Shown here piece after piece: positions 33,154 to 47,121 of a stretch of 64,000 nt of DNA (position 1 is its first letter; every line of letters starts with the position of its first letter). Source of the stretch: Streptomyces sp. NA02950 (GTDB taxonomy: Bacteria; Actinomycetota; Actinomycetes; Streptomycetales; Streptomycetaceae). A program made the translations under genes and the position numbers. The stretch spans positions 5,825,001-5,889,000 of the forward strand of contig NZ_CP054916.1 in assembly GCF_013364155.1 (NCBI RefSeq), written 5' to 3'. Below the pieces are notes generated by a model. That model had not been told where the DNA came from. It did no database searches and saw only the letters and a list, made by a program, of their open reading frames with translations.

Positions 33154-33605
33154 CTGTTGCCTTTCGTCGTCGGCACGGCCCGCGCCGCCTCTCCCGTGGT
33201 GGTCGGCCCGGGGCAGGCGCGGGTTCGCGTGCCGGATGGTGCGGTCCGCCGTCCGGGGCGATGTCACGCCACGGTAACGGCTGATCGAAACGAGGTACGC
33301 CGGCCCGCCCCGTCGTGTTCAACTCCGGCCCCTGTCAGGCCCTCATCGTGGCCCGACTCACACCGGCCAAGGCCCGGCCGGCGGGCGGACGGCGGGCTCG
33401 TACGGCCACGTACGGCTCGCACGGGAGGGTGGCGCCGAGGAGTGACGGGCACATGACGCGGGCAGGTCTGATAGACCTTGACCCGCGCGCTCCGGGTTGC
33501 ACTGCGGCTCTTCTACGGCAGACTGCTTAGGCCCCCCCACCGCGAGGCACCGCACAGGCGCAGCGCAGGACAGCACGGCAGAGCAGATACGGGATATCGG
33601 AGATC
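33154..33605. other. Intergenic region with the native promoter of the interrupted RDD gene
   Basis: No gene is seen in these 450 bases. The divergent zinc-ribbon gene and the RDD gene fragment at 33606 read away from it. TTGACC at 33478-33483 and a GGAG before the ATG at 33606 mark the old initiation region. The -10 is not certain. Confidence 0.45.
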
Positions 33606-33698
33606 ATGAGCGCCTCTACCTCAGGATCCGCGGACGGCAGCTCCATTCCTGGCTTTTATCCGGAGGGGTCATACGGGAAACCGGTACATTTCCTGTAG
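33606..33698 (+). pseudogene. Detached 5' end of the RDD gene
   Basis: ATG with GGAG upstream, then MSASTSGSADGSSIPGFYP, which is the expected N-terminus of the RDD protein continued at 45411 (...GYYPDPSIPGYIRYWNG). After residue 19 the frame enters the integrated element and ends at TAG 33696-33698, leaving a 30-residue peptide. The PG-(F/Y)-YP overlap on both sides marks the junction. Confidence 0.75.
33641..33680. other. Left junction of the integrated element (attL)
   Basis: Host sequence (coding SSIPGF) changes to element sequence near the TA at 33657-33658, judged by comparing the two broken ends of the RDD gene. The core shared with the right junction is short (T-x-x-TA-x-CC), as expected for a serine integrase. 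Confidence 0.5.
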
Positions 33699-33721
33699 GG
33701 CTCTGACCTGGGCATATGGCT

Positions 33722-33751
33722 GAGGCTCCCACTCCGTCGAATGGGAGCCTC
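33722..33751 (-). terminator. Terminator after the DUF397 gene at the element's left end
   Basis: GAGGCTCCCA pairs with TGGGAGCCTC (10 bp, perfect) around a 10-base loop. Confidence 0.8.
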
Positions 33752-33792
33752 ACTGTTGCTGGGGGCGGGCTGGCTGCTCCGGGCGGACTGGC

Positions 33793-34002
33793 CTAGAGCT
33801 GGTCAAGCGCACCGGTGGCCACTCCGCCGATGAACGCTGCCCAAACCTGGGCGGGGAAGATCAGTACCGGGCTGGTCTGATCCTTGCTGTCTCGCGTCGC
33901 AACCCTGTCGCCGGGTACGAATGCGACCTCCACGCATGCGGACTGTCCGTTACTGCGGCTGGACTTGAACCACGCCGCGCCCGAAAGATCAACCGTCTTC
34001 AT
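33793..34002 (-). CDS. DUF397 protein
   Basis: The 69-residue protein is a typical DUF397 member: AAWFKSSRSNGQSACVEVAF, then RVATRDSKDQTSPVLIF and a C-terminal WAAFIGGV. Its ATG overlaps the 3' end of the XRE gene by 14 bases, the usual coupling with that partner. It is the last gene before the left junction and is followed by a terminator. Confidence 0.9.
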   Translation of the reverse strand: MKTVDLSGAAWFKSSRSNGQSACVEVAFVPGDRVATRDSKDQTSPVLIFPAQVWAAFIGGVATGALDQL

Positions 34003-34873
34003 AACTCCCTGCCATGTCAGCAAGTAGGCGCCTGGACGCCTGCTCTGTGAGTGCCTTGTCCCAGATGTCATTGAACGCTTCGTCGTAGCGTTCAACTTCG
34101 CTGGGCTTGTCCAGATAGAGATCACCGGTGTAGCCGTCCGAGTAGACGGTTGGTGGCTCACTGGTGATCCCGCCAGCGCGCGGGAAGCGAAGGACGATGA
34201 AGGGGCCGGTGAGCACGCCCCGATGCATACCTGCCTCGAACGGGACAACCTTGATCGTGACGGTCTCTAGCTTGGACATCTCTAGCAGGTGTCCAAGCTG
34301 GGCTGCCATCACCTTTCTCCCGCCGATCGGGCGGTGTAGTAGTCCCTCGTTGAGTACAACCTCCAGCTTGGGCGGTGCCGTAACGCGAGTGATCGATCCC
34401 TGGCGGGCAATCCGAAGGTGAACGCGACGTTCGATCTCCTCCGGGTCCTCGTCCGGGTTGTGAGCCTGGATGATCGTCCGGGCGTAGTCCTCGGTCTGGA
34501 GCAAGCCTGGCATCAGTTCGCTCTCGTACCAGGAGAGTTGGTCGGCCGCTTCCTCTAGCCCAATGTAGACGTCGAATCCCTCCGGGATCACGTCGCCATA
34601 GCTGTGCCACCAGCCCCGTGCCTTCGTCTCCTTGGCCAGACCCATGAGCGCGGCCGTCAACTCGTCGGACGCTCCGTAGACCCTGCACATCGTTTCGGCG
34701 TCGTGGCTGCGCAAGGAGGTCTGCCCGCTCTCGATGCGCCACATCTTGGCTTCTGACCACTCAAGCGCCTTCGCTGCGGCGCGGACCGTGAGCCGTGCTT
34801 GATTCCTCAGATCGCGCAGGTAGCGGCCGAGTTGCCTGCGCGGCACGGTCGAACCTGTCGGCCCCTCCGTCAT
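33989..34873 (-). CDS. XRE-family regulator with DUF5753
   Basis: The 294-residue protein has a helix-turn-helix (LTVRAAAKALEWSEAKMWRIE) and a DUF5753 region (YESELMPGLLQTEDYARTII; MHRGVLTGPFIVLRF). The ATG at 34873 follows GGGAGGGAGAG. It is the likely regulator of the divergent small-gene cluster starting at 35089, and its DUF397 partner follows. Confidence 0.9.
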   Translation of the reverse strand: MTEGPTGSTVPRRQLGRYLRDLRNQARLTVRAAAKALEWSEAKMWRIESGQTSLRSHDAETMCRVYGASDELTAALMGLAKETKARGWWHSYGDVIPEGFDVYIGLEEAADQLSWYESELMPGLLQTEDYARTIIQAHNPDEDPEEIERRVHLRIARQGSITRVTAPPKLEVVLNEGLLHRPIGGRKVMAAQLGHLLEMSKLETVTIKVVPFEAGMHRGVLTGPFIVLRFPRAGGITSEPPTVYSDGYTGDLYLDKPSEVERYDEAFNDIWDKALTEQASRRLLADMAGSYEDG

Positions 34874-35088
34874 GAGGTCTCTCCCTCCCTGTCCCTCATT
34901 ATGAAGGACTCTCGTTGGGTGAAATGAAAGCATCAAGTCGCGCGACTCGCAATGTAATCAGTCAGTTCGAGTACAGCGAATCGAAGCAATCAGAATGAAG
35001 TCTTGCAGAATCAGGGAGCAGGGCTCATGCTGTGACTGTCGCCCCGTCAGATCTCGGGCGGCGGCTAGGACATGAGGGAGGCGGCTCC

Positions 35089-35436
35089 GTGAGCGATACC
35101 CCGGCGGTCGGCAAGGTGGTCGTAGATACGGCCCGAAACCGCATAGGTCAGGTCATGGGTAGCGTCGGGGGCTCAGTGCAACTCCGGCCGCTTTCTGGCG
35201 GCCGTGAATGGGATGCGGACCCGTCTCTTATCAGGGCTCTAACGGAACAAGAACACATGAGGCTTCCGGCGGCTCCTTTTGTTCGAGCGAAGCCCCCGGG
35301 CAGGAATAGCGGATACGTAGACATTCTCTTGCCTGTGAAGCCGGGCGAAGGTATCGCATTCAAAGCCATGCGATACCCGCCGTGCAATTGTCAGCGTTGC
35401 CAGCGCGGTGAAACTCCGCCGGAAAAGCCGCTGTAA
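35089..35436 (+). CDS. Conserved small protein beside the XRE/DUF397 pair
   Basis: The 115-residue protein begins VSDTPAVGKVVVDTARNRIG and continues with GGSVQLRPLSGGREWDADPS, a beta-rich pattern I have seen next to XRE/DUF397 pairs in Streptomyces; function unknown. A Cys motif CNCQRC lies near the C-terminus. The GTG at 35089 follows GGGAGG. Confidence 0.7.
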   Translation: MSDTPAVGKVVVDTARNRIGQVMGSVGGSVQLRPLSGGREWDADPSLIRALTEQEHMRLPAAPFVRAKPPGRNSGYVDILLPVKPGEGIAFKAMRYPPCNCQRCQRGETPPEKPL

Positions 35437-35469
35437 TTTCTGCGCACTTCGTCGATTGAAGGAAATGCC

Positions 35470-35637
35470 ATGCTTCCCTTAGGCGCAATTGAAATTGTAG
35501 CGCTATGCGTGCTCGGGGTACTGCTGCTAAGGCTCATTTACACTTACAGCGGCCTTCAGGGGTTGATGGTCCTGGTGATCTATGTTGCATGCGCCCTCGT
35601 TTTGGTGCCACTTTATGCCTGGGCGGCTCCTGCTTAA
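35470..35637 (+). CDS. Small two-helix membrane protein
   Basis: A 55-residue frame with AAGGAA before the ATG. Two hydrophobic stretches (IVALCVLGVLLLRLIY and LMVLVIYVACALVLVPLYAW) make it a probable bitopic membrane protein. Family unknown. It follows the 35089 gene by 33 bases. Confidence 0.6.
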   Translation: MLPLGAIEIVALCVLGVLLLRLIYTYSGLQGLMVLVIYVACALVLVPLYAWAAPA

Positions 35638-35826
35638 GAGTCCGTACCCGGGGCTGGTTGACGCTACCAGCCGAGGTCAAGGGCCCGCGATCTCCCGTTC
35701 TGGCTGCCATAAAAGGTGTCAACTGGCGCTTATTCCTACTCGGTAGGTGGCTGGGGATGGGGTGCAAGAAAACCTGCATCACGCTGCGGGGAGCGTTTCC
35801 CCGCTGAGCTATTCGAGGAAGCGAAA

Positions 35827-36030
35827 ATGGATAAATTCGATTTCGTGAACGTGGCCTTGTGTCGAGACGCAAAGGTCGGGAACTGTCCGCAGGTGGCTGT
35901 CAACGTGCCTGGGGTGGTGGCCATCCGGGACAGTGAACGGCCTGCCGAGGTGGTTACCATGACGCTCGACGGCTGGCGGGATCTCACCTTAGCTGTCAAG
36001 GCGGGGAAGTTCGATTTGGGCGCTGCCTGA
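35827..36030 (+). CDS. Small DUF397-like protein
   Basis: The 67-residue protein reads MDKFDFVNVALCRDAKVGNC, with the C-terminal half VAIRDSERPAEVVTMTLDGW and a tail AVKAGKFDL. This follows the DUF397 plan (RDS... then a W and a terminal GEFD-like end) but lacks the SSYS core. GAGGAAGC precedes the ATG. It is closely followed by a zinc-ribbon gene. Confidence 0.65.
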   Translation: MDKFDFVNVALCRDAKVGNCPQVAVNVPGVVAIRDSERPAEVVTMTLDGWRDLTLAVKAGKFDLGAA

Positions 36031-36038
36031 GGGGAGTC

Positions 36039-36212
36039 ATGATGTCGAAGTGTCCTCGTTGTGAGGCTGGGCTCATCACGGACCCTGAGAGCGGTCTTCC
36101 CTGGTGTGCTCATTGCGGGGAACACTTCGCATTGTCGCTGCCTCGGTGTCCGGGGCTCTGGTCGAGGCGTGATGCTTCCACCCGTGCTCCGGTTAAACGG
36201 CGCCGCCACTGA
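36039..36212 (+). CDS. Small zinc-ribbon protein
   Basis: The 57-residue frame starts after GAGGGGAGTC, eight bases beyond the preceding stop. CPRC and CAHC form a zinc ribbon; the C-terminus is basic (APVKRRRH), suggesting nucleic-acid contact. A strong terminator follows within 15 bases, so this ends the small operon. Confidence 0.65.
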   Translation: MMSKCPRCEAGLITDPESGLPWCAHCGEHFALSLPRCPGLWSRRDASTRAPVKRRRH

Positions 36213-36225
36213 GTGACCCAAGTTC

Positions 36226-36262
36226 GCCCCGTCCATGCGTTTCCACTGCGCATGGACGGGGC
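36226..36262 (+). terminator. Strong hairpin terminator
   Basis: A perfect 14-bp stem (36226-36239 with 36249-36262), a 9-base loop and a following TTT. Confidence 0.9.
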
Positions 36263-36291
36263 TTTCACGCGTTCCCGCTCGTGAACACTCG

Positions 36292-36311
36292 TCACTTATT
36301 CCCATAAGTGA
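36292..36311. promoter_or_regulatory. Palindrome in the promoter of the 36410 gene
   Basis: TCACTTAT-tccc-ATAAGTGA is a perfect 8-base inverted repeat. AATAAGTG recurs at 39043-39050 in front of the GntR gene. GntR proteins often bind such AT-rich palindromes. Confidence 0.55.
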
Positions 36312-36346
36312 TTGACCCGCTTGGGTGGCAGTCTGCATGCTGGCAG

Positions 36347-36364
36347 CTCATTGGTACGAGTAAT
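36347..36364. promoter_or_regulatory. Operator-like sequence, copy 1
   Basis: CTCATTGGTACGAGTAAT is identical to 39092-39109. It contains CTC/GAG arms and is embedded in a longer similar block (GCATGCTGG upstream, ACCRGnnAAG downstream). It probably binds the element's GntR protein. Confidence 0.7.
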
Positions 36365-36409
36365 GACCGGCTAAGTGGGTCGGCGTGCTCGCTGATCGGA
36401 GGTGGATGC

Positions 36410-36562
36410 ATGTGGTACTGGACGCTGCGGCTGCGGCTGGGCTTGCTGGCGATCCTTCTGGCTGTCGCGATGAGCGAATGTGATCGCGGGGAGATGGGGC
36501 CTAATGGCATGGGGGCCCACCCCGGGGGCGCTGTTACGCAAGGTAACCGCGACACGCGGTAA
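36410..36562 (+). CDS. Small membrane protein
   Basis: The 50-residue frame begins MWYWTLRLRLGLLAILLAVA, one basic-flanked membrane helix, followed by a short hydrophilic tail. The ribosome site GGAGGTGG is excellent. Similar short proteins start the transfer/regulatory operons of Streptomyces AICEs. It lies just after the operator-like block. Confidence 0.6.
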   Translation: MWYWTLRLRLGLLAILLAVAMSECDRGEMGPNGMGAHPGGAVTQGNRDTR

Positions 36563-36680
36563 GGACTTGCGTTCGATCTGTAGCGGTACAGGTGTGGCGC
36601 GTGTGAGGGTTGGTCTTGGTCGAATCTTTGTACGGAGGTTCGTTTCAGGTGTGATCGCTCGGTTCGGCTTGGGGGCTGGT

Positions 36681-36953
36681 GTGACAGGGGAACCTGACGA
36701 AGTGCTGGTGTGGGTGCCTGGGGCTGCGTATCTGGCTGCCTGGCGTGCGGCTCGGGATGCTGCTGATGCCCTGTGTTCGTCTCTGTGCGATGCCGGGGTG
36801 CCGGGGGATGCCCTCGAGATAACACCGAGTACGGACGCTGACGGGTGCCCGGTCATCCGCATCGCTGGACGGGTGACACCTGCCCAATCTCGCGCTGTTG
36901 CCGACGCTTTAAAAAAGGGCGGTGCGGGGTCATCGCCTCAGCGTGGGGAGTGA
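36681..36953 (+). CDS. Conserved AICE protein
   Basis: The 90-residue protein reads EVLVWVPGAAYLAAWRAARD and then ALEITPSTDADGCPVIRIAG and RVTPAQSRAVADALKKG, a helical pattern I associate with accessory proteins of Streptomyces integrative elements; function unknown. The GTG start is uncertain: the frame is open upstream, and another GTG at 36651 has GGAGG ten bases before it. Confidence 0.6.
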   Translation: MTGEPDEVLVWVPGAAYLAAWRAARDAADALCSSLCDAGVPGDALEITPSTDADGCPVIRIAGRVTPAQSRAVADALKKGGAGSSPQRGE

Positions 36954-36984
36954 CGCGCGGTGCGGTAAAGGTGCAGGTGGGCAC

Positions 36985-37165
36985 CGCCGCCGGCCGTAGC
37001 GGCTTTTGGGCGGGAGCTGCCACGGGGCGAGAGAACAGGGGGCCTTACGCTGGCCCGGCGAATCGGGCGGGTCTGTGATCCTGCCCGCGTTTGCGACCGA
37101 TTGGCCCCCTGTTCTTAGAGGCTCGCCCCGTGGTGGCTGCCTAAAAGCCGCGTAGGCCGTCGGCC
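36985..37165. repeat. Large imperfect inverted repeat (cruciform)
   Basis: Arms of about 55-60 bases surround a 57-base centre. Perfect inner blocks include AACAGGGGGCC (left, 37034-37044) with GGCCCCCTGTT (right, 37102-37112) and CCACGGGGCGAG (37020-37031) with CTCGCCCCGTGG. Farther out, GCGGCTTTT pairs with AAAAGCCGC. The centre holds its own hairpin (CGGGCGGG/CCTGCCCG). No gene covers it. A single-strand origin, sti-like site or transfer-related structure is possible. Confidence 0.75.
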
Positions 37166-37280
37166 ACCAGCCACGACGCCCCAGCCATCGGGCATCGGCC
37201 CTACCAGTGGTGCACTTGTCCTCTTGCTGTGTGGGGTACGGCGCTTGGACCATGCCGGTACGGCGAGACAGGGAGGGCGT

Positions 37281-37475
37281 ATGCGGTGGGGCAAGAAGAC
37301 GACTGAGGGGCGGCCCATTCCTACGCGTGGGCGGCGCGGGTCCGTGCGGGTGACGACTGATGGCCGCGGGCGTCAGTGGTTGGAGTGCTCGGCGTGCGGG
37401 ATGCGGAAGTTCAACCCGGGCGTTACACCAGGCCAGTTCGCGGCGCGGAAGCATGCGGATACGTGCACGGGCTGA
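37281..37475 (+). CDS. Small Cys/His protein (zinc-finger-like)
   Basis: The 64-residue frame follows GGGAGGG. A basic N-terminus (MRWGKKTTEGRPIPTRGRRG) leads to a C-x2-C...H-x3-C arrangement (LECSACGMRK; KHADTC), a likely zinc finger. It may bind DNA, and it lies directly beside the large inverted repeat. Confidence 0.65.
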   Translation: MRWGKKTTEGRPIPTRGRRGSVRVTTDGRGRQWLECSACGMRKFNPGVTPGQFAARKHADTCTG

Positions 37476-37518
37476 TGTGGGTGCGGGGCGACCGGTTGGC
37501 CGCCCCGCTGAGCGCTGA

Positions 37519-37710
37519 CTAGGCGGCGGCGCCCATCGCGCGCGCCCATCCGCACTGGGGGGTGGTGCACTCCTGCGGGTCGTCGGCGAACTCCTCGGGG
37601 AGCGAGTAGCCAGCGGTGCGCGCCTGGCGGGCGAGGCACTGCGCGCACACGCAGTCGGGGCAGAGACGGTCATCGGACAGGTAGACCTCGTCCTGACAGG
37701 TGGGGCACAT
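37519..37710 (-). CDS. Small zinc-ribbon protein
   Basis: The 63-residue protein has three Cys pairs (MCPTC, LCPDCVCAQC) and a C-terminal CTTPQCGWARAMG. AAGGAGACGCC precedes the ATG, a strong ribosome site. It is convergent with the 37281 gene. Function unknown. Confidence 0.7.
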   Translation of the reverse strand: MCPTCQDEVYLSDDRLCPDCVCAQCLARQARTAGYSLPEEFADDPQECTTPQCGWARAMGAAA

Positions 37711-37761
37711 GGCGTCTCCTTAAAGGGTGGGCCGGTCGGTGGCCTGACGGGCTTTAGCCCG

Positions 37762-37843
37762 ATCACATGCCCCGCGGGCTGTCCAAGATCTTGACCGCTT
37801 GCGGCGCCGTAAGGCGTCTTGGACAGCCCGCGGGGCATGTGAT
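37762..37843. repeat. Perfect 27-bp inverted repeat with nested palindrome
   Basis: Arms 37762-37788 and 37817-37843 are exact reverse complements. The 28-base loop contains a second near-perfect palindrome centred on GGCGCC (CTTGCGGCGCCGTAAG). A short hairpin CGGGC-ttta-GCCCG (37748-37761) lies immediately to the left. This is far longer than a normal terminator and sits in a gene-free stretch. Confidence 0.9.
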
Positions 37844-38197
37844 TGCCTCTGGCGTCAGGGTGCCGACTGGTCCACCCGGTGACGACTCCAGCCACCCGAG
37901 GGAGAAAGGGCCCACCGACTGCCAGGCGGGTGCACTGCGGCCGGTACTTGGGCACCACCGGTTGGGGACTGACGGCGTCGGGCCTTGTGATGGCTGCTGT
38001 AGTGCCGCGTGCCTGGTCCGCACATGGGAGAACCCCCGCACTATTGGCGGGGGCTTCGTGCTGCTTGGGGCTGCTCGGGGTGCCGGGCGGTGGCCGTCCG
38101 GGCGGACCGGCCGCTAGGCCGCAGCCGCCCGGGGCGGCCAGACCGCCCGGCGCGCCGAAGGCGCGCCCTTGAGCAAGTGAAGAAGATCTAGACGCAG
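37844..38197. other. Gene-free stretch with strong hairpins
   Basis: No reliable gene is seen. The plus-strand frame 37843-38172 has no ribosome site and unlikely composition. The stretch ends with GC-rich hairpins (38090-38165, including GGCGCGCC twice) before the convergent GntR gene end. Together with the inverted repeats at 36.99-37.84 kb it could be an origin or transfer region. Confidence 0.5.
38033..38053. terminator. Hairpin
   Basis: CCCCCGC pairs with GCGGGGG around a 7-base loop, followed by CTTCGT. Confidence 0.65.
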
Positions 38198-39025
38198 TTA
38201 GCCGCGTGCGGGGGTGGTCGGCGTGATGCGGTAGGTCGGGTTGATCGCGGCGGCGCTCATGCGCAGTTCTTCGACAAGTAGTGCGCGGCCGTCCTGGTCC
38301 TGCGTTACGCGGTAGGTGATCAGGATGGTGTCGGCGTCGGTGCTGAGTGCGGCCCGTTCGTCCGGGCGGGCGGCTCGGGCTGTCACGGTCTCCCACCACG
38401 TGAGCGTGAGTCCCTTGTCGGCAAGCATGGCGTACAGCTCCGGCGGGTGGGCGTCGGGCCGTTCGGCCAGTGCGGGCACCTGGTCGGCCACGTCGAACGG
38501 GATCACGGTCTTGTGTGCGGCACGGACTCCGGTCTCCGGGTCGCGCAGCAAGCGTTCTGCTGTGATGGTGTGGACCGGGCCCCGACCGAGGAGAGAGGCG
38601 ACTGTGCCCGATGCGTGGTCACGGGTCACCGTGGGCTCCTCGGCTACCTCGAACTGATGGCCCATCACCAGAGTCTTACCTCGGCGGATCAGAGTCCGCT
38701 TGATCACTAGGGCGGGGGCGTCCTCGCGGCGGACGAAAGTCCCTTTGCCCTGGTGGGAAGCGGCGAGACCCATGCGACGGAGTTCAGCTATGGCCTGGCG
38801 CACTGTGTTGCGGCTGACCCCGTAGCGCTCCAGTAGCTCTGTCTCGGACGGCAGTTGGCTGCCCGGTGGATAGCCGCCTCCTTCCCCCTTGCTGATCTCA
38901 GCGGCCAAGATTCGTGCGAGCTGGAGGTATCGGGGCTCGCTGGTGAGCTGCTGGGCTGAGCTGGCGTCGTCCGGCACTGGTCTGTGCTCCCATCTGCGGC
39001 CCCGGTGGGCTCGTCTCGGCGTCAT
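38198..39025 (-). CDS. GntR-family repressor with UTRA domain (KorSA-like)
   Basis: The product of about 275 residues has a GntR winged helix-turn-helix (PPGSQLPSETELLERYGVSR, then NTVRQAIAELRRMGLAASHQ) and a C-terminal UTRA effector domain (ERLLRDPETGVRAAHKTVIP). In AICEs such proteins (KorSA) keep replication and transfer silent. Candidate starts are 39040 (ATG, no ribosome site), 39025 (ATG after AGGA) and a GTG near 38977; 39025 is taken here. Identical operator-like blocks lie in front of the divergent gene and at 36347. Confidence 0.87.
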   Translation of the reverse strand: MTPRRAHRGRRWEHRPVPDDASSAQQLTSEPRYLQLARILAAEISKGEGGGYPPGSQLPSETELLERYGVSRNTVRQAIAELRRMGLAASHQGKGTFVRREDAPALVIKRTLIRRGKTLVMGHQFEVAEEPTVTRDHASGTVASLLGRGPVHTITAERLLRDPETGVRAAHKTVIPFDVADQVPALAERPDAHPPELYAMLADKGLTLTWWETVTARAARPDERAALSTDADTILITYRVTQDQDGRALLVEELRMSAAAINPTYRITPTTPARG

Positions 39026-39091
39026 AGGTCCTGCACTCATCAGAATAAGTGCTTGTGCTCATCGGTCAATGCGGCGCATGCTGGTCGCGCA

Positions 39092-39109
39092 CTCATTGGT
39101 ACGAGTAAT
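39092..39109. promoter_or_regulatory. Operator-like sequence, copy 2
   Basis: CTCATTGGTACGAGTAAT, identical to 36347-36364. It lies 21-38 bases upstream of the first gene of the main element operon and about 70 bases from the GntR start, so it could control both directions. Confidence 0.7.
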
Positions 39110-39129
39110 AACCAGACAAGGGGACGGAC

Positions 39130-39342
39130 ATGGCTGACAACCGCTCACCCGCCGATCGGGTTGCGGCCGTACATCGCTACGGCGACCCGATAACTGGCGG
39201 TCAGCATGCGGCGGCAACGGCACTGCTTGAGGCCCTGCTGCGAGCTGCTGAACACCACGGAGTGACGCTCGCGGACTTCGACGCGGTGGTCGATCTGCCG
39301 GGCGGCTGCCTGGACGTGGTGCGTGCGAAGCGTCACCGCTGA
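39130..39342 (+). CDS. Small AICE protein, first gene of the transfer/replication operon
   Basis: The 70-residue, mostly helical protein (AAATALLEALLRAAEHHGVT; DFDAVVDLPGGCLDVV) has no family that I recognise. GGGGACGG precedes the ATG. It starts the operon running to the rep gene under the operator-like block. Confidence 0.6.
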   Translation: MADNRSPADRVAAVHRYGDPITGGQHAAATALLEALLRAAEHHGVTLADFDAVVDLPGGCLDVVRAKRHR

Positions 39343-39431
39343 CGTGCCGCGGGGGCCGGATTCGAGGTTCCGGCCCCGCTGTCGGCCCGTGGCCAGTGTC
39401 CCCATGACATCCGACAAGAAGAGGTGAACTG

Positions 39432-39827
39432 ATGCAGACGTTTCCCGTAGATGTGGCACGGCTCGGCACACTGATGTGCGTCGTCCCCCCGGAACCGCGG
39501 GTCGATCCGACCACGGGCCAGGTACGCACGGACCGCGAAGGACGACGGCTCAACGTGGTGGGCGTCTCGGTCCGCCAGTCCGAAGGGCGTCGCGCCGACG
39601 TCATCGAAGTCGCTGTTCCCGGTGAAGCTCCGGCCGTTGCGGAGGGGATGCGGATCAGCATTGACGGCCTGGTGGCCGTCTCCTGGTCCATGGGTGACCG
39701 TCACGGAATCTCCTTCCGGGCAACTGCGATCACTCCCGCTAACGGCGGCAAGAGCACCCCGGGCGGTCCGAGTTCCGCGGGGGCGGTGACCGGTAAGGCC
39801 AAGGCGGCGGGTGGCGATGCTGCCTGA
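39432..39827 (+). CDS. Conserved AICE protein (OB/beta-rich)
   Basis: The 131-residue protein is beta-rich in its first 100 residues (LNVVGVSVRQSEGRRADVIE; GMRISIDGLVAVSWSMGDRH) with a low-complexity tail. Similar proteins stand near the start of the transfer/replication operon in Streptomyces integrative elements; a DNA-binding role is possible but unproved. Preceded by GAAGAGG. Its 3' end overlaps the next gene. Confidence 0.65.
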   Translation: MQTFPVDVARLGTLMCVVPPEPRVDPTTGQVRTDREGRRLNVVGVSVRQSEGRRADVIEVAVPGEAPAVAEGMRISIDGLVAVSWSMGDRHGISFRATAITPANGGKSTPGGPSSAGAVTGKAKAAGGDAA

Positions 39828-40056
39828 TCCGACCGAGCTGCGGCGGGCGTACGTCGGCTGGCCGGACCTGTGTCGGCACGTCGCTGAGCTGCATCGACAG
39901 CTTGCTGCCTGCCCCTTTGAAGCCATGGATGCGCCACAGCGAGCCCGGCTGGTCCGGGTCTCTCAGGCTGTGGCGCACCTGGCCCAAACCATGATCATCC
40001 GAGAAGGGCAAGGAGGACAGGAATGGTGGAACAGCCCAATACCGACACAGATGTAG
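39817..40056 (+). CDS. Small helical protein
   Basis: The 79-residue frame (LPDPTELRRAYVGWPDLCRH; LVRVSQAVAHLAQTMIIREG) overlaps the preceding gene by 11 bases and the next by 34, as expected in a compact operon. GTG at 39811 is an alternative start. Family unknown. Confidence 0.6.
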   Translation: MLPDPTELRRAYVGWPDLCRHVAELHRQLAACPFEAMDAPQRARLVRVSQAVAHLAQTMIIREGQGGQEWWNSPIPTQM

Positions 40057-40253
40057 TCGTAACGCGACTCATGAGGAATCTGCGGCTGCTCACCGGGTGC
40101 GATGCACTCCTCACAGCCATGGAAGGCGGGGCGCTGGTCGCCGAGGTCATGGCGTTGACGGCGCGGTCCGCTGAGACGGTCGCCGATGACGCGCGCACCA
40201 TGCTTCTGACGCTCCGTCAAGACCCGCGCAAGTCCGGAGGTGATCACACATGA
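40023..40253 (+). CDS. Small helical protein
   Basis: The 76-residue protein is predicted mainly helical (VVVTRLMRNLRLLTGCDALL; LTARSAETVADDARTMLL). AAGGAGGACAGGAATG places a good ribosome site inside the preceding gene. Its stop overlaps the transfer ATPase start (ATGA). Function unknown. Confidence 0.65.
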   Translation: MVEQPNTDTDVVVTRLMRNLRLLTGCDALLTAMEGGALVAEVMALTARSAETVADDARTMLLTLRQDPRKSGGDHT

Positions 40254-41608
40254 CGTGGGACTGGGGAGTTTGGTTGGCGATCGTGCTGGTCCTCATTGCT
40301 GCGCGGGCGCGCCTTGGGGGCTCGCGGCTGCCGCGCTCGGTGCGTCGTGTCGCGGCACTGCCCTGGGTGTGGTACCTGGCCGGATTCCCGGTCGTGGCGC
40401 TGCGTATGCGGTTCACGTGGAGGAAGCTGGCCCGCAATGCGGACCTGGCGGTTGCGCGCCATCACGTCCCTCGTGCGCTCGTCGGGCGGGACATGATCGT
40501 CACGGGGCGGCCACTTCGGCCGCAAGCACCTCGGCTCGGTCTGCCGCGTCCCACCCGTGACGGCCTGGTCGTGCGGGCCTTCCTGCACCCTGGGCAGACT
40601 CCGGGTCCGTACATCGATGCGGCGCCTGCCATGGCGCACGCCTGGAGGATGCACTCCGTTCGCGTGGTCTCCGATCGTCGTGGGGAAGTCCTCATCACTG
40701 CGGTGTGGAGGGATCCCCTCCAAGAGGCAATGCACGGCGAAGTACCGGATCCGGATGCTCCGGACATGCCTGCTCGGGTGCTGACGGCTCATGTAGGCCG
40801 AACCGAAACCGGGGGTGTGTGGGCGATGGATCTGCATCGGGTTCCGCACTGGCTGATCGTCGGCGCTACACAGTCAGGCAAGAGCACCCTTCTTGCCTCA
40901 CTGGTCCGGGAGCTGGCGACACGGCCGGTGGCGCTGGTCGGGATCGACTGCAAGGGCGGCATGGAACTGTCGCTCTTCGAGCGTCGGCTGTCCGCGCTGG
41001 CATGCAGCCGCTCCGAGGCGGTGGCGCTCCTGGCGGTGCTGTGCGATGAGGCAGCGTCGCGTATGGCGATGTGCCGGGCGGCTGGCGTGCGCGCTATCTG
41101 GGATCTGCCGGAGGAGGTTCGCCCGGTGCCGGTCGTGGTCCTGGTGGACGAGATCGCGGAGCTGTATCTCGTTGACGGGTCCAAGATCAGTCGCCAGGAA
41201 GCGGCGGAATGCTCGACCTACCTTCTGCGGATCGCGCAGCTCGGTGCGGCGCTGGGGCTGCATCTCATCGTGGCCGGGCAGCGTGTCGGCAGTGAGCTGG
41301 GCGCCGGAGTGACAGCGCTCCGTGCGCAGCTTGGGGGCCGGGTTTGCCACCGCGTCCATGACGAAGCAACAGCGGAAATGGCGCTCGGCGACTTGGCGAA
41401 GGATGCAATCGAGGTCGCGCGGACGATCACAGAGGATGAGCAGGGTGTCGCTGTCACTGCGATGGGCGGCGCATGGGTTCGGGCACGGTCGCGGCTGACT
41501 TCCGCGGCGTCGGCTCGGCGGATAGCTGAACTGCACGCCGATCTGACTCCCGATATGCCAGACCTTTTGCGGGCTGTCATTTCCGCAACGTACAAGGGGA
41601 CGACATGA
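40250..41608 (+). CDS. FtsK/SpoIIIE-type conjugal transfer ATPase (TraSA-like)
   Basis: The 452-residue protein has an N-terminal membrane segment (WLAIVLVLIAARA), a second hydrophobic region (WVWYLAGFPVVAL) and an FtsK motor with Walker A VGATQSGKST (G205-T213, K211) and Walker B VVVLVDEIAE (D300, E301). Proteins of this type move double-stranded DNA between mycelia in Streptomyces, without a relaxase. Start and stop both overlap neighbouring genes, so it lies in a tightly coupled operon. Confidence 0.93.
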   Translation: MTWDWGVWLAIVLVLIAARARLGGSRLPRSVRRVAALPWVWYLAGFPVVALRMRFTWRKLARNADLAVARHHVPRALVGRDMIVTGRPLRPQAPRLGLPRPTRDGLVVRAFLHPGQTPGPYIDAAPAMAHAWRMHSVRVVSDRRGEVLITAVWRDPLQEAMHGEVPDPDAPDMPARVLTAHVGRTETGGVWAMDLHRVPHWLIVGATQSGKSTLLASLVRELATRPVALVGIDCKGGMELSLFERRLSALACSRSEAVALLAVLCDEAASRMAMCRAAGVRAIWDLPEEVRPVPVVVLVDEIAELYLVDGSKISRQEAAECSTYLLRIAQLGAALGLHLIVAGQRVGSELGAGVTALRAQLGGRVCHRVHDEATAEMALGDLAKDAIEVARTITEDEQGVAVTAMGGAWVRARSRLTSAASARRIAELHADLTPDMPDLLRAVISATYKGTT

Positions 41609-41814
41609 CGGAAAATCAGGCACTGCCCCTGGCTATCATTTTCGGCTCCTTCTGCGTGCTCGTTGTGCGCTCGCGGGAAGTCGTCTGGTGGGTTGGATCC
41701 CTGTTCTTCGCCTTCGGGTTCGTGATGGCGAGCACGACACCGGGCCTCACCATCAACGATTTCCTTATGTGGGTCAGCACGTACGTACTGCGGAGTGCGG
41801 AGAACGCGGGCTGA
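41605..41814 (+). CDS. Small membrane protein (spread-like)
   Basis: The 69-residue protein has two hydrophobic segments (LPLAIIFGSFCVLVV and VVWWVGSLFFAFGFVMA). It overlaps the stop of the transfer ATPase by four bases. Position and size resemble the Spd proteins that help intramycelial plasmid spread, but this is inferred from context. Confidence 0.65.
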   Translation: MTENQALPLAIIFGSFCVLVVRSREVVWWVGSLFFAFGFVMASTTPGLTINDFLMWVSTYVLRSAENAG

Positions 41815-41828
41815 GAAAGGGGGCGGAA

Positions 41829-41939
41829 ATGCCTCACCTCTATGTGAGGTGTCGCGGCTGCGGCCGGATCCGCTACCGCACTCGTGGCGGGCGTCTGCGT
41901 CGGTGCCGCTGCTGTCGAAAGGGGCCCCGCCGACGGTAG
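41829..41939 (+). CDS. Very small four-Cys protein
   Basis: A 36-residue frame with GGGGGCGGAA before the ATG. CRGCGRIRYRTRGGRLRRCR followed by CC forms a basic zinc ribbon. It sits between the spread-like gene and rep. The conserved cysteine spacing and ribosome site are the only support. Confidence 0.5.
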   Translation: MPHLYVRCRGCGRIRYRTRGGRLRRCRCCRKGPRRR

Positions 41940-42079
41940 TTGTCACAACCGGTGACTTACCGCCGGCGGGCACCCGGAAGAAAACCCCAGGTCAAACAAA
42001 TCTTTGGAGCAAATCCAGTGTCTTCCCGCATCCACTATCCGGCCGTCTTGGCGACGGTCCGTAAGGAAAGGGCACCGCC

Positions 42080-43510
42080 GTGACCATGTCCGACCCCCGT
42101 GCGCGGCGCTCCGCACTCGACCACGCGGAGCGCCTGCGCGGGCTCACGACCACTGAACGCGACATGATCCGACTCGTACAAGACCCCGGCTTCGGGCGCT
42201 GGCTCGACCAAATGCGCAACATCGGGGGCTGCTCACACCCCATCTACCTCTCTGGCCAGACCGTGACTCGCGATCTGATCACGGGTGAGACGCTGCGGTT
42301 CTACAGCACCGCAGATGAGCCACGCGGGACGCTGGCCGTCCGGTGCGGCAACCGCCGCGAAAGCAGGTGTGAGCCGTGCTCACGCCTCCACTCCGGGGAC
42401 ACCTTCCACCTTGTCCGGGCCGGACTGCTGGGCGGCAAGACCGTGCCAGCCGCGGTGGTCCATCACCCCCGGCTGTTTGTGACGCTGACGGCGCCCAGCT
42501 TCGGGCCGGTCCATCGCGCGACCACCGACAAGCCGTGTCGCCCTCGCCGATCCGGTGGGCACTGCGCCCATGGTCGCCCCGTAGGCTGCGGCGCCTTCCA
42601 TGCCGACTCCGACAACGCGATTGGGCGCCCACTGTGCTCGGCCTGCTACGACTACGCGGCACACGTACTCTGGCACGCTACGGCCGGTGAACTCTGGAAC
42701 AGGACTTGCATCCTGATCCGGCGGCTCCTTGCCGCCACACAGTCGATTAGCCAGCGCAAGCTGAATGAACACCTGCGGGTTTCCTTCGCGAAAGTCGCCG
42801 AATTTCAGAAGCGCGGTGCGGTGCACGTGCACGCAGTGATCCGGGTAGACGGTCCGGACGGGCCTCAGTCGCCACCTCCAGCATGGGCCACGCCCCTATT
42901 GCTGGCTGATGTGGTCCTTCGCGCAGTAGACGATGCGGAGACCTGCACCCCCTACACCGTGGAATTGGGAGAGCACATCATCAAATGGGGAGAGCAAATC
43001 GATGTGCATCCGATCTCTCCCGAGACTGCACAAGCCACAGTCACAGATAGTGCGGTGGCAGCGTACATCGCGAAATACGTGTCCAAGAGCGTCGGCGAAG
43101 TCGGGGGAACTGACTGGAAGATCAAAACGGCAGAGGAAATCGAGCTTGCACGCGTAAGTCCTCACATGCGCGCACTCATGGGTATGTGCTGGCGTCTCGG
43201 GGGGATTCCTGTGCTGGCTCCGCTGCGGCTACGGCTGTGGGCGCACACTCTGGGATACCGGGGACACGTGCTTACGAAGTCGCGCAAGTACTCCACCACG
43301 TACGCGGCTCTGCGTTCGGCACGTTCCGAATTTCGCTCGGACCGTGGAGAGGAAGAGAGGCCCGGGGCGGGTGTCGAGTCATCATGGCGTTACGTCCGGT
43401 CCGGCCATTCGCTAGCTGAGGCAGAGATAGCGACGGGGATTGCGGAAGATATTGTGCGCAGTCGCGATCTCGCTAATGAGATTCGAATCGATACGCGGAG
43501 GCGGAAGTGA
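42080..43510 (+). CDS. repSA: HUH replication initiator (RepSA family)
   Basis: The 476-residue protein shows the three rolling-circle motifs: FVTLTAP (residues 133-139), VHVHAVIRV with H249 and H251 for metal, and AAYIAKYVSK with Tyr329, Lys332 and Tyr333 as the nicking region. An N-terminal Cys-rich part (CGNRRESRCEPC; CSACYD) may bind zinc. It would nick the double-strand origin and start rolling-circle copying of the excised element. The GTG follows AAGGAAAGGG. The 140 bases before it could hold the origin or a promoter. Confidence 0.92.
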   Translation: MTMSDPRARRSALDHAERLRGLTTTERDMIRLVQDPGFGRWLDQMRNIGGCSHPIYLSGQTVTRDLITGETLRFYSTADEPRGTLAVRCGNRRESRCEPCSRLHSGDTFHLVRAGLLGGKTVPAAVVHHPRLFVTLTAPSFGPVHRATTDKPCRPRRSGGHCAHGRPVGCGAFHADSDNAIGRPLCSACYDYAAHVLWHATAGELWNRTCILIRRLLAATQSISQRKLNEHLRVSFAKVAEFQKRGAVHVHAVIRVDGPDGPQSPPPAWATPLLLADVVLRAVDDAETCTPYTVELGEHIIKWGEQIDVHPISPETAQATVTDSAVAAYIAKYVSKSVGEVGGTDWKIKTAEEIELARVSPHMRALMGMCWRLGGIPVLAPLRLRLWAHTLGYRGHVLTKSRKYSTTYAALRSARSEFRSDRGEEERPGAGVESSWRYVRSGHSLAEAEIATGIAEDIVRSRDLANEIRIDTRRRK

Positions 43511-43674
43511 AGAGCACGCACGGCGGGGTGTCGCGTAATGACCCTGCCGTGCGTGCTTGGGTGGCTCGCCATTTGGCGCGAGCTCCGGATCTAACTACTG
43601 AGGAACGGATGCTTCTTCGGTCGCTTCTTCGGAGGTTTGGCCAGCGCGGTGACCCTTCGTCTCCCGCCAGATAG
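43507..43674 (+). CDS. Small basic protein after rep
   Basis: The 55-residue frame starts at a GTG that overlaps the rep stop (GTGA). It reads as one helical unit (VRAWVARHLARAP, then TTEERMLLRSLLRRFG). Its last 80 bases overlap the convergent integrase gene. Similar short proteins follow rep in other elements, where excisionase would be expected; this one lacks a clear helix-turn-helix. Confidence 0.5.
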   Translation: MKSTHGGVSRNDPAVRAWVARHLARAPDLTTEERMLLRSLLRRFGQRGDPSSPAR

Positions 43675-45370
43675 GCACTACGGTTTCCGGGTCAAACTTG
43701 CCCCGGCCCTTTGGGCCTTTGAGTAGCTGGATGTACTTCATGTAGCGCTTAATTATTACCCGCTTTTCCACGTTGTCCCCTGACCTCCATAGCGCTAGGT
43801 CACTTTCCACGGCTTGGGGGTCGGGGGCCGAACCGAGTGCTTCGAGCTTCTCTATAAGATCGCGGATCTTCTTTGAGATCGCCCCGACGTGTTCGTAGTA
43901 GTCTTCATTTGACCAACCAACGTCAGAGAGTTCTCCGCGCTCCCACTTACCTTTGAGCTGCTCCTTTTCTGTGATGGCTTCATTCCTTTGCTCCTCTAGC
44001 TCCATGCGTTGTTCGGTGATCTCCTCGTCTTCCTGCACTGTCTCGCTAAGTGAAGCCCCCAACTTCTCTATGAGGAATTCCTCCATGAGGATATCTATGA
44101 GGTCGTCAATCGGTTTCATCTTGCGTGAAGTAGAGCCACATGCTCCGTTCCGGCCGCGTGACGGGCAGCGATAGACATGGTATTTCGCCTGTCCATTCCA
44201 GCGCCCTTCCATGGGCTTCTCGCATTTATAGCAACGCACAACCCCTGTCAGTAGGTACTTTCCGTATTCATGTCCTCCGACTGGCGTGGAATCCACTCCA
44301 TTCTGCTCTTGGCGTGCTTTTAAGATGCTCTGGGCCTTGAACCAAGTTTGTGGAGACACAATCTCATCCCAGGTCCCCATTACTGGATTTCCCTTCTCGT
44401 CGGTAAGTAGCTTAGACATTCCGACATGTTGTTTTGAGGGTTCGAGCCGATGACGTCCGCTGTACAACACCATGCCCGCGTATCGTGGATTCGAGAGAAT
44501 GAGTTTCACCGTGGCCGTGGTCCACTCGCCGCCACCCGGGGAAGGGATTCCCGAGAGTGTCAGTCCACGTGTGATGGATGATGGATTCCCGTTCTTCTCC
44601 ACCAGCTCTCGGAAGATTCGCCTAACGACTGCTGCCTCTTTCTCAATCTTCGTTCCTACGTTCTCACCCTTGCGCACCCATCCATAACCGAGGCGGCCTA
44701 TGGGAATACCCATCTCCGCGGCTCCCAGTGTGTCTCGAGCCACGCGCCGAGCTGTGTCCTGAGACTGCTTCAGCAGCATCACGCACATTACGCGCGCCAT
44801 ATTGCAGTCAGATTCCCTGACGAGATTGAGTTCACTGGTTGCTCCGATTGCGGGCCGCTTCACCTCGTCAACCACGTTCGCAAGATCTTCCAGGTCCCGG
44901 GGTTGCCTAACTAGGCGGTCCAAGTCATAGAAGACGATTCCGTCAATTACCCCATTGAGTAGATCCTTCAGCATTTGCTGGAAGTCTTTGCGGAGAACGA
45001 CCCAATCAACGGTGCCATCAGGGCGGGTGATCCGCTTCTTCTTGTATGCGCTGGTGTCGTCGTCTATGTACAGCTTGACGAACGGGCCCCACTCGAGGGC
45101 CTGACGCTTGGCCTCAACGTCTTCGGTCTGTCGTTCGATGGCTGTCTTTCGCTTGGTCGCCTCCTTCCGGGCGCGTCGGTCTTCGTTAATGTCATGCATG
45201 GACAGACGTAGGTATCCGCCCGGTCGCTGTGGTACGTACTGGGCGTAGCCAGCAGTGAGGTCCAAGGTGGTTGTCCTGCCCCGCTCGCGGAGCTGGGTGA
45301 TCACCGGGTCGTCGATGCCGGATACGGCGGACAGGTCAAGTGTGTTGGCCGTGAAGGGAGTAGGGGACAT
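43595..45370 (-). CDS. Large serine integrase
   Basis: The 591-residue protein has a serine-recombinase catalytic domain with nucleophile S57 (GYLRLSMHD) and DLDRLVRQPRDLEDL, a recombinase domain (residues about 225-330), a zinc ribbon (RCYKCEKPM; YRCPS) and a coiled-coil region (EQRMELEEQRNEAITEKEQL). Fifty-two residues precede the catalytic motif, longer than usual. The ATG at 45370 follows a perfect AGGAGG. The enzyme inserts the element into the RDD gene. No recombination directionality factor is recognised. Confidence 0.93.
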   Translation of the reverse strand: MSPTPFTANTLDLSAVSGIDDPVITQLRERGRTTTLDLTAGYAQYVPQRPGGYLRLSMHDINEDRRARKEATKRKTAIERQTEDVEAKRQALEWGPFVKLYIDDDTSAYKKKRITRPDGTVDWVVLRKDFQQMLKDLLNGVIDGIVFYDLDRLVRQPRDLEDLANVVDEVKRPAIGATSELNLVRESDCNMARVMCVMLLKQSQDTARRVARDTLGAAEMGIPIGRLGYGWVRKGENVGTKIEKEAAVVRRIFRELVEKNGNPSSITRGLTLSGIPSPGGGEWTTATVKLILSNPRYAGMVLYSGRHRLEPSKQHVGMSKLLTDEKGNPVMGTWDEIVSPQTWFKAQSILKARQEQNGVDSTPVGGHEYGKYLLTGVVRCYKCEKPMEGRWNGQAKYHVYRCPSRGRNGACGSTSRKMKPIDDLIDILMEEFLIEKLGASLSETVQEDEEITEQRMELEEQRNEAITEKEQLKGKWERGELSDVGWSNEDYYEHVGAISKKIRDLIEKLEALGSAPDPQAVESDLALWRSGDNVEKRVIIKRYMKYIQLLKGPKGRGKFDPETVVPIWRETKGHRAGQTSEEATEEASVPQ

Positions 45371-47045
45371 GGGGACGCCTCCTGGTGGTGGTGCGGAAAT
45401 GCCCGGGGTGGGGTACTACCCAGATCCGTCCATCCCCGGCTACATCCGTTACTGGAACGGCGCGGCCTGGGTGCCGGGCACCAGCAGGCCCGCCCCGGCC
45501 GAGGGCGAGTCCATGCCCGCGCCACCGCCCGGGGTGACCCACACCCAGGTGATCGCCCCGGCGGGGGACGAGACCGGGCCGATGTTCCTGGACGAGGACC
45601 CGGCACCGGGCCCCGCGGAGGGGACCGGCGGGGCACTGCCCGAGGTGCGCCAACGCGGGGAGATGGACGTCCGGGACAGCGGCGCGGGAGGTGCCGGCGG
45701 TGCGGGCGCCCAGCCGGTGCCGCCCGGTGGAACCGCGGCCCCGGTGGACTGGGACGATCCACGGCGGTTGCACGGCTCCCGGCCCGAACCCGCCACGGCC
45801 TGGCAGGCCGATGCCTCGCGGCAGGCCGGGTTCGGCGGTGAGCAGGACCGCCGGGTCTCCTGGGGCTCGGAGCACGACGGCCCCGGCGGTGCCCCGGCCG
45901 GGCCGCTGCCCGGGGTGCCCGATCCGCGGCGCGCCGCGGAGGACCCGGCGGGCGGCGGCGACCAGCCGGGCAATCAGCCGGGTGGCCCGGACAACTCCAC
46001 GCTGACCATGCGCGGGAGCGGGGCCCGGCCGCCCAAGGACCGCTCCACCCAGGCGCTGCCGCCGGTGCGCCGGAACCCCGAACTGCCCCCGGCCGACGGC
46101 GGCGAGCCGGCGGCCGCGCCGGGCGCCGGCACGCTGTCGGGCCGCGCGCCCCGTCCGCAGGGCGGTACGGACACCCCCACGACCGGCCAGGGCCGGGGCC
46201 AAGGCCAGGACCAGGGCACCATGGCGTTCCGTGCGGTCGGCCGCGGCGTACCGGGCCAGGGCGCCGGTGCCGCCGGCACCACACCTCCGGCCCAGCCCCA
46301 GCAGCCGCAACAGCCCCAGCAGCCCTACGGTGGTGTGCCCCCGCAGGGCGGCGCACCGAGCGGTCCGGCCTGGCAGCAGCAGGTGCACCAACTCGCCCAG
46401 CAGCACGGGCAGCAGCCGGGCGCGCCGCAGCCGGGCGCGCCGCAGCAGGGCGGGCAGCAGCAGGGCGGGCAGCAGCCGGGTCAACAGGGCGCGCCCGAGG
46501 GCGTCATCCCCTGGAAGCCGCCCGTCGACAACCCCTTCCTCCAGGCCGCGCAGGCCCAGGGGCGGCCCGCCCCGCTCGGCCGCCGTCTCCTCGCCCGGCT
46601 GATCGACACCGTCGTCCTGCTCGGAATCGTCGGTGCCGCCGCACTGCCCCTGTGGAGCAAGGCGAGCGACCACATCGAGGAGAAGGTGGAGACGGCGAAG
46701 CGGACCGGAGAGACCGTCACCGTCTACCTCCTGGACGGCACCACCGGCGGCTATCTCGGCATGGCGCTCGGTCTGCTGCTGGTCCTCGGGATCGTCCTGG
46801 AGGCGCTGCCCACCGCCGCCTGGGGCCGCACCCTGGGCAAGAAGCTGGCCGGGGTGCGGGTCCTGGACATCGAGGGGCACAGCAAACCGTCCTTCGGCGC
46901 CGCGCTGCGCCGTTGGCTGGTCTACTCGGTGCTGGGACTGCTGGTGATCGGCGTGCTGAACGTGCTCTGGTGCCTGTTCGACCGCCCGTGGCGGCAGTGC
47001 TGGCACGACAAGGCGGCGCGCACCTTCGTGGCGGCGTCCGGCTGA
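45369..47045 (+). CDS. RDD-family membrane protein with long Pro/Gln-rich N-terminus (element-supplied start)
   Basis: The product has 558 residues. An ATG within CATG (45369) opens MGTPPGGGAEMPGVGYYPDP, joining the host sequence PDPSIPGYIRYWNGAAWVPG. This is followed by about 370 residues of Pro/Gly/Gln-rich low complexity with PQQPQQP-type repeats. The RDD domain at residues about 395-555 (RPAPLGRRLLARLIDTVVLL; GRTLGKKLAGVRVLD) spans the membrane. The first 16 codons and the ribosome site (AGGGGA) belong to the integrated element; the native start is stranded at 33606. Confidence 0.85.
   Translation: MGTPPGGGAEMPGVGYYPDPSIPGYIRYWNGAAWVPGTSRPAPAEGESMPAPPPGVTHTQVIAPAGDETGPMFLDEDPAPGPAEGTGGALPEVRQRGEMDVRDSGAGGAGGAGAQPVPPGGTAAPVDWDDPRRLHGSRPEPATAWQADASRQAGFGGEQDRRVSWGSEHDGPGGAPAGPLPGVPDPRRAAEDPAGGGDQPGNQPGGPDNSTLTMRGSGARPPKDRSTQALPPVRRNPELPPADGGEPAAAPGAGTLSGRAPRPQGGTDTPTTGQGRGQGQDQGTMAFRAVGRGVPGQGAGAAGTTPPAQPQQPQQPQQPYGGVPPQGGAPSGPAWQQQVHQLAQQHGQQPGAPQPGAPQQGGQQQGGQQPGQQGAPEGVIPWKPPVDNPFLQAAQAQGRPAPLGRRLLARLIDTVVLLGIVGAAALPLWSKASDHIEEKVETAKRTGETVTVYLLDGTTGGYLGMALGLLLVLGIVLEALPTAAWGRTLGKKLAGVRVLDIEGHSKPSFGAALRRWLVYSVLGLLVIGVLNVLWCLFDRPWRQCWHDKAARTFVAASG
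45396..45440. other. Right junction of the integrated element (attR)
   Basis: Element sequence changes to host sequence at or near TA 45417-45418 within the second Tyr codon of GYYPDP. Host coding then continues with CCAGATCCGTCCATCCC. Confidence 0.5.
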
Positions 47046-47121
47046 GGCGGATGGACCATCCGGGTCGCCCGAACGGGGCATGCCGGATGCGACGGCTCCG
47101 GCTCCGGGTTCGACTCGGGCC

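Follow-up and report, generated by a model that had tools for sequence, protein, structure and literature searches.

The stretch analyzed here (the window, 64,000 nucleotides) comes from the 9.77 Mb genome of Streptomyces sp. NA02950 (contig NZ_CP054916.1, positions 5,825,001 to 5,889,000). It contains a pSAM2-like element that interrupts a gene for a DUF2510-RDD protein within the segment coding for DUF2510. From its predicted proteins the element is classified as an actinomycete integrative and conjugative element (AICE) with a serine integrase. RepSA (PF20199), an FtsK/SpoIIIE-type protein (PF01580) and an integrase are encoded, and the att sites have empty counterparts in relatives. The integrase has the Resolvase, Recombinase and zinc-ribbon domains of large serine integrases (Pfam). 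Coordinates of all features are given in Table 1.

The two junctions carry the halves of one RDD gene, as proposed in a first-pass annotation made from the sequence alone. The native ATG at 33606 is stranded at the left junction, and at the right junction an open reading frame (ORF) running from ATG 45369 contains the remainder of the gene. Pfam recognized DUF2510 across this junction, at hybrid residues 15-45. In the window ∼18 native codons were exchanged for 17 element codons, with the insertion at codon 18-19. As in 5′-end target replacement, a conserved gene is interrupted in its 5′ part, and an in-frame start and N-terminus are supplied by the element. The hybrid gene and the integrase gene diverge from a shared CATG, and each carries the Shine-Dalgarno sequence of its partner within its own first codons. 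Both the double use of CATG and the reading of the integrase AGGAGG as RDD codons on the other strand had been described in the first-pass annotation and hold. The ribosome site that it placed together with an in-frame ATG within 45369-45410 does not; the ATG is there, and the Shine-Dalgarno sequence lies upstream at 45356-45360.

Table 1. Features of the RDD locus and its element, in coordinates of the window
Feature	Position	Strand	Basis or remark
Hybrid DUF2510-RDD gene, 558 aa	45369..47045	+	Pfam PF10708 E 2.5e-10, PF06271 E 2.9e-22
Element-supplied 5′ coding sequence MGTPPGGGAEMPGVGYY	45369..45419	+	Begins at ATG 45369
CATG, start of integrase (-) and hybrid RDD (+)	45368..45371	both	Integrase start codon is the complement of 45368-45370
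Hybrid gene Shine-Dalgarno GGGAG	45356..45360	+	Within integrase codons; GGAG conserved in carriers and putative remnants
Integrase Shine-Dalgarno AGGAGG	45378..45383	-	+ strand reading gives RDD codons
Antisense of integrase codons 58-83	45122..45199	+	Retained in putative remnant types B-E; core TCTTCGTTAATGTC at 45180-45193
Native RDD 5′ end, stranded, MSASTSGSADGSSIPGFYP running into element sequence	33606..33698	+	30 codons and stop (33696-33698); read from sequence, intact counterparts exist
attL core TATCCGGA	33657..33664	none	Relatives TATCC[T/G]GATCC; crossover placed within shared CCnGA
attR core TACCCAGA	45417..45424	none	Read from sequence
Integrated pSAM2-like element, ∼11.76 kb	33665..45424		blast against empty and occupied sites; Pfam
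Large serine integrase, 591 aa, divergent from hybrid RDD gene	43595..45370	-	Pfam Resolvase, Recombinase, Zn_ribbon_recom
RepSA replication initiator	42080..43510	+	Pfam PF20199 E 2e-149
FtsK/SpoIIIE-type transfer protein	40250..41608	+	Pfam PF01580 E 2.4e-24
GntR-family regulator	38198..39040	-	Pfam PF00392 E 1.4e-16
HTH_31-DUF5753 regulator	33989..34936	-	Pfam
DUF397 protein	33793..34248	-	Pfam PF04149 E 1.1e-20
Host neighbour gene, 455 aa	31006..32373	+	Upstream of RDD

Of the 392 Streptomyces genomes sampled, 377 gave a match to the RDD segment. Uninterrupted MSAS.. genes, for which the first-pass annotation had proposed a search, were found. Proteins P0006-P0008 start exactly with MSASTSGSADGSSIPGFYPDPS, the same residues as the stump in the window, and an uninterrupted gene with MSAPTSGSADGSSIPGFYPDPS is present in genomes G383, G164, G055 and G095. 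When the window was compared with these four empty sites, the match stopped at 33661 and resumed at 45419 in G095 and at 45417 in the other three. An S-for-P change in the stump was considered as a sign of decay and rejected, as S is native in P0006-P0008.

Eight occupied loci were compared: the window, S. iranensis (G371), S. niphimycinicus (G149), S. sabulosicollis, S. rugosispiralis, strain S465, G356 and G359. The hybrid frame is kept in all eight, including four with a truncated integrase, and in the seven typed carrier loci an in-frame start lies 8 nt after GGAG and 16 or 18 codons before YPDP. The leader of S465 (locus L021) is the same as that of the window. In G149 and G371 the native start is still present 11-12 kb from RDD. 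Four other carriers show losses: the integrase is shortened to residues 1-112 in S465 and G359, with identical junction sequence over the part compared; in S. rugosispiralis the integrase is cut and the native ATG lost; and in G356, where the native ATG is also lost, a deletion joins native upstream DNA directly to antisense integrase sequence. Divergence between carriers at 4-fold sites was higher for the integrase than for the host neighbour gene (0.410 vs 0.298, 0.441 vs 0.295 and 0.258 vs 0.161), so that the carriers are unlikely to go back to a single element that spread once and recently.

The first integrase codons diverge little. At 4-fold sites of codons 1-20 there were 2 differences in 42 comparisons among three integrases (the 5′ part of that of G149 lay outside the match used), and 6 in 140 with truncated copies included. 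Values were intermediate in codons 21-60 (0.22-0.31) and reached 0.34-0.53 per 50-codon window in codons 111-560. Low divergence in codons 1-20 is expected if the same codons also serve RDD, though a general constraint on start regions might contribute as well.

RDD starts were typed at 165 loci, 157 of these from the 392 genomes, in a set enriched for genomes without the native pattern. Leader types were named after the sequences had been inspected. The loci comprised 94 native-labelled ones (88 from Streptomyces and 6 from other genera, 5 of the latter labelled by hand), one native-like locus marked with a query (G120), 7 carriers and 63 with an element-type start at which no element was found. 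These 63, out of 157 typed Streptomyces genomes, divide by leader into types A (25), B (26), C (5), D (4), E (2) and F (1). Among the first 61 genomes by handle (G000-G060), 57 were typed, giving 43 native, 13 element-type and 1 carrier, which is the window; 4 were untyped. With 5 carriers added to the 63, an element-type start is present in at least 68 of the 392 genomes (17%). The native 5′ pattern was found anywhere in the genome in 285 of 392, including G149 and G371, where it is the stranded copy and not next to RDD. Integrase relatives at E ≤ 1e-60 were present in 9 of 392 genomes, none of them among the 63.

An in-frame ATG, GTG or TTG lies 14-17 codons before YPDP and 8-12 nt after GGAG in 62 of the 63 element-type genomes. 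The sole exception is G223 (88% complete), in which the frame is lost between start and YPDP. Protein P0055 of the laboratory species Streptomyces venezuelae has a type B beginning, as read from the protein sequence.

A recognisable fragment of antisense integrase was found upstream of the start in 37 of the 63 genomes, all of types B-E. A 14-base core of this fragment was present with at least 12 matches in 26/26 type B, 5/5 type C, 4/4 type D and 2/2 type E genomes and in 7/7 carriers, against 2/94 natives; reverse-complement and reversed controls gave 10 matches at most. In G018 the relic is spread over two reading frames and comprises integrase residues 1-18 and 47-101 (E 6.6e-14), and weak matches were obtained in G035 and G028 (E 0.054 and 0.75). 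The antisense integrase sequence makes types B-E look like remnants of earlier insertions. Upstream of RDD the host neighbour gene was found in 54 of the 63 genomes, at 0.8-1.1 kb in 52, 2.1 kb in G018 and 2.5 kb in G028; in native-labelled genomes it was found in 54 of 94, at 0.17-2.2 kb (median 0.8). MSTG and LSTG starts occur in G395 and G399, from two other genera, and MS-type starts in several small-genome Streptomyces. We read the element-type starts without an element as probable scars of a start swap that outlives the element, with the leaders of types A and F likewise taken as presumed remnants. Element-free homologues starting with MGTPPGGG had been named in the first-pass annotation as evidence against its reading, and formally the 63 genomes are such homologues; those of types B-E (37) look like remnants, and for A and F the case is made from the leader.

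A start swap by insertion, persisting after element loss, is very probably the explanation of these data. A pSAM2-type element with a serine integrase would integrate at an attB that lies in the DUF2510 part of the RDD gene, which is conserved in Streptomyces. The attP arm of the element would bring a Shine-Dalgarno sequence, a start codon and 17-19 codons, by which the DUF2510 beginning (..G-Y-Y-P-D-P) is rebuilt in frame, with the leader placed back to back with the integrase gene and the Shine-Dalgarno sequence of each within the first codons of the other. Insertion would then exchange the RDD 5′ end and strand the native start. On later deletion or decay of the element, the element-type start would stay in the host, several lineages also retaining part of the antisense integrase. 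The gain for the element is likely to be a harmless insertion into a conserved gene. Insertion, the empty sites, the conserved in-frame start and the remnant status of types B-E are well supported; translation of the hybrid would begin at ATG 45369.

In a comparison of 25 type B genomes, restricted to columns with at least 70% filled, pairwise identity was 0.95-0.99 over the Shine-Dalgarno sequence, start and leader and 0.81-0.88 over the antisense integrase block. Other upstream 15-column windows gave 0.38-0.77, and 4-fold sites of the host neighbour gave 0.70. The retained antisense integrase block may well carry the RDD promoter. Whether Streptomyces elements have repeatedly and permanently rewired a core gene, in its start, its first codons and, in several lineages, a promoter within antisense integrase, is evenly balanced. 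If they have, integration would act as a ratchet, by which a reversible insertion becomes a lasting regulatory change in about one sixth of the sampled species. Within one genus the series runs from empty and occupied sites through truncated elements to an element-type start lacking an element, so that events can be counted, retained parts are visible and it can be asked whether mobile elements give core genes a lasting new promoter.

Trees were calculated by quick searches on the host neighbour and the RDD domain; in the tree of 148 rows, 37 rows were under half filled. Changes between native and element type numbered 9 (113 rows) or 13 (148 rows). An approximately unbiased (AU) test on the 148-row tree rejected one clade for the 61 element-type rows (p 0.0014). 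Type A (22 rows, support 100) and type B (26 rows, support 97) each formed one clade in the 113-row tree; type A needed 2 changes in the 148-row tree. That element-type genomes fall in more than one clade is well supported.

Several observations count against the start swap and its repetition. Changes forced by well-supported branches alone number 5 (113 rows) or 3 (148 rows), and a quick tree underlies the AU test, whose groups were defined after the sequences had been seen; a single old origin of the element-type start, followed by replacement by native genes, could in principle account for the pattern. The integrase core reached 10 matches in 24 type A genomes, 11 in the remaining one and 11 of 14 in type F, and native-labelled genomes reached 11 in 1/94 and 12 in 2/94. 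Types A and F (26/63) are therefore without a clear integrase relic, and their element origin is argued from leader similarity only. The host neighbour was not found in 9 of the 63 element-type genomes; six of these were covered for just 1.5 kb upstream, but G172, G187 and G012 for 2.4-3.1 kb. In G393, G396, G404 and G406, from one further genus, the gene starts VIVE.. or similar, neither MS-type nor element-type. Low 4-fold divergence is also seen in integrase codons 561-591 (43595-43690; 6/89), though 30% of residues differ there. The first-pass annotation had the insertion swap the promoter and first 16 codons; the N-terminal exchange stands, at ∼18 codons for 17, but a working promoter brought by the element is at most putative, as 44900-45500 contains no sigma-70-like site (mean of shuffles 0.2). 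The carrier-type database proteins P0004 and P0005 are annotated from an inner ATG (MPGVG..).

That inner ATG, at 45399 (MPGVGYYPDP), is quite unlikely to be the true hybrid start in place of 45369. It is present in the carriers compared and was preferred by the annotators of those two proteins, but no good Shine-Dalgarno sequence was seen by eye, and starts of types A-F lie 14-17 codons before YPDP in 62/63. It is highly improbable that the element merely broke RDD, leaving a dead gene with a coincidental in-frame start. The native promoter and start are severed, and a GC-rich end of ∼50 nt is fairly often open in some frame. The frame is nevertheless kept in 8/8 carrier loci and 62/63 element-type genomes, with GGAG conserved at start spacing, and complete ORFs of <400 codons from YPDP number 2/52 in element-type against 5/74 in native-labelled genomes (4 of these 5 from other genera).

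The leader might instead be the original RDD 5′ end of some Streptomyces, captured by an element, in which case most element-free cases would not be remnants. The 63 genomes with a leader and no element found there, the span of types A and B over many species in one clade each, the lack of a clear relic in type A and the VIVE.. starts of the four genomes named above all fit such a capture. It is unlikely, and already weak for types B-E, given their antisense integrase sequence, unlike natives. The division of the G018 relic between two reading frames, the MSTG, LSTG and MS-type starts in other genera and in small-genome Streptomyces, and the native start still 11-12 kb away in G149 and G371 also stand against it. 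A regulatory switch of the kind suggested in the first-pass annotation, by which RDD expression is meant to vary with integration and excision, is doubtful. Integrase and RDD share their 5′ regions, integration removes the upstream arm that the integrase has in the circular form, and a dusA island lowers expression of its target (PMC8409611). The element-type start, however, is retained in the 63 genomes in whose RDD locus no element was found, which fits repair of the target better than switching.

The start-swapping principle is already known from a few proteobacterial cases, SXT/prfC and the dusA islands. The SXT/R391 integrative and conjugative elements (ICEs) differ from the Streptomyces element in hosts and transfer system. 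Their insertion likewise affects the 5′ part of a conserved gene, prfC (PMC2791158), and they use a tyrosine recombinase where a serine integrase is found here; the available text describes no start kept after element loss. The dusA island IMEVchUSA3 is mobilizable, is related to SGI1 and encodes an integrase and RdfN of its own, and overlap of integrase and target starts is not described in the sections available (PMC8409611). Prophages and phage remnants at the dusA 5′ end were described earlier (Farrugia et al., as quoted in PMC8409611), so that finding remnants at this type of site is not in itself novel. AICEs of the pSAM2 type share RepSA, an FtsK-type transfer protein and an integrase with the present element, and 19/144 use serine recombinases. 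Their described sites, in the portion of the source at hand, include tRNA genes and protein genes (one disrupted), with start replacement unmentioned there (PMC3218068). A literature search, with most subscription journals outside its coverage, gave no paper describing an attB in RDD. New here are the use of a serine-integrase element, the reciprocal overlap of the two gene starts and the remnants in their graded series; for the latter two no earlier description was found.

Inverted-repeat scoring of attP and attB gave no clear crossover centre. Among viral contigs, 4 pattern matches to the integrase were obtained and 0 confirmed. Apart from generic ATPase matches for the FtsK-type protein, PADLOC gave a single match, weak and Csa3-like, for the GntR protein, and Rfam at gathering score had no match in 33000-46000. 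A long hairpin at 36985-37185 (DNA fold -73.1 kcal/mol, z -7.05; no Rfam match) lies in a block that shares 93-95% identity with the elements of G371 and G149, the rest of the aligned rep/tra stretches being 71-82% identical. It is perhaps the single-strand origin of a rolling-circle replicon.

Related integrases were seen at other sites. Those of loci L007, L008, L018, L019, L013, L020 and L024 (39-52% identical, best match) lie divergently next to the 5′ end of a gene judged by eye to be flavin-reductase-like. In L013, L020 and L024 just the first part of this gene is found, with other DNA behind it, as though this integrase family also carried the 5′ end of its target. In L009, L010 and L011, integrase relatives (38-39% identity) are divergent beside the start of another gene (..GHALITMVEPH..). 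In the window a second RDD-domain gene (47080-47739; PF06271 E 1.4e-23) lies directly 3′ of the hybrid gene.

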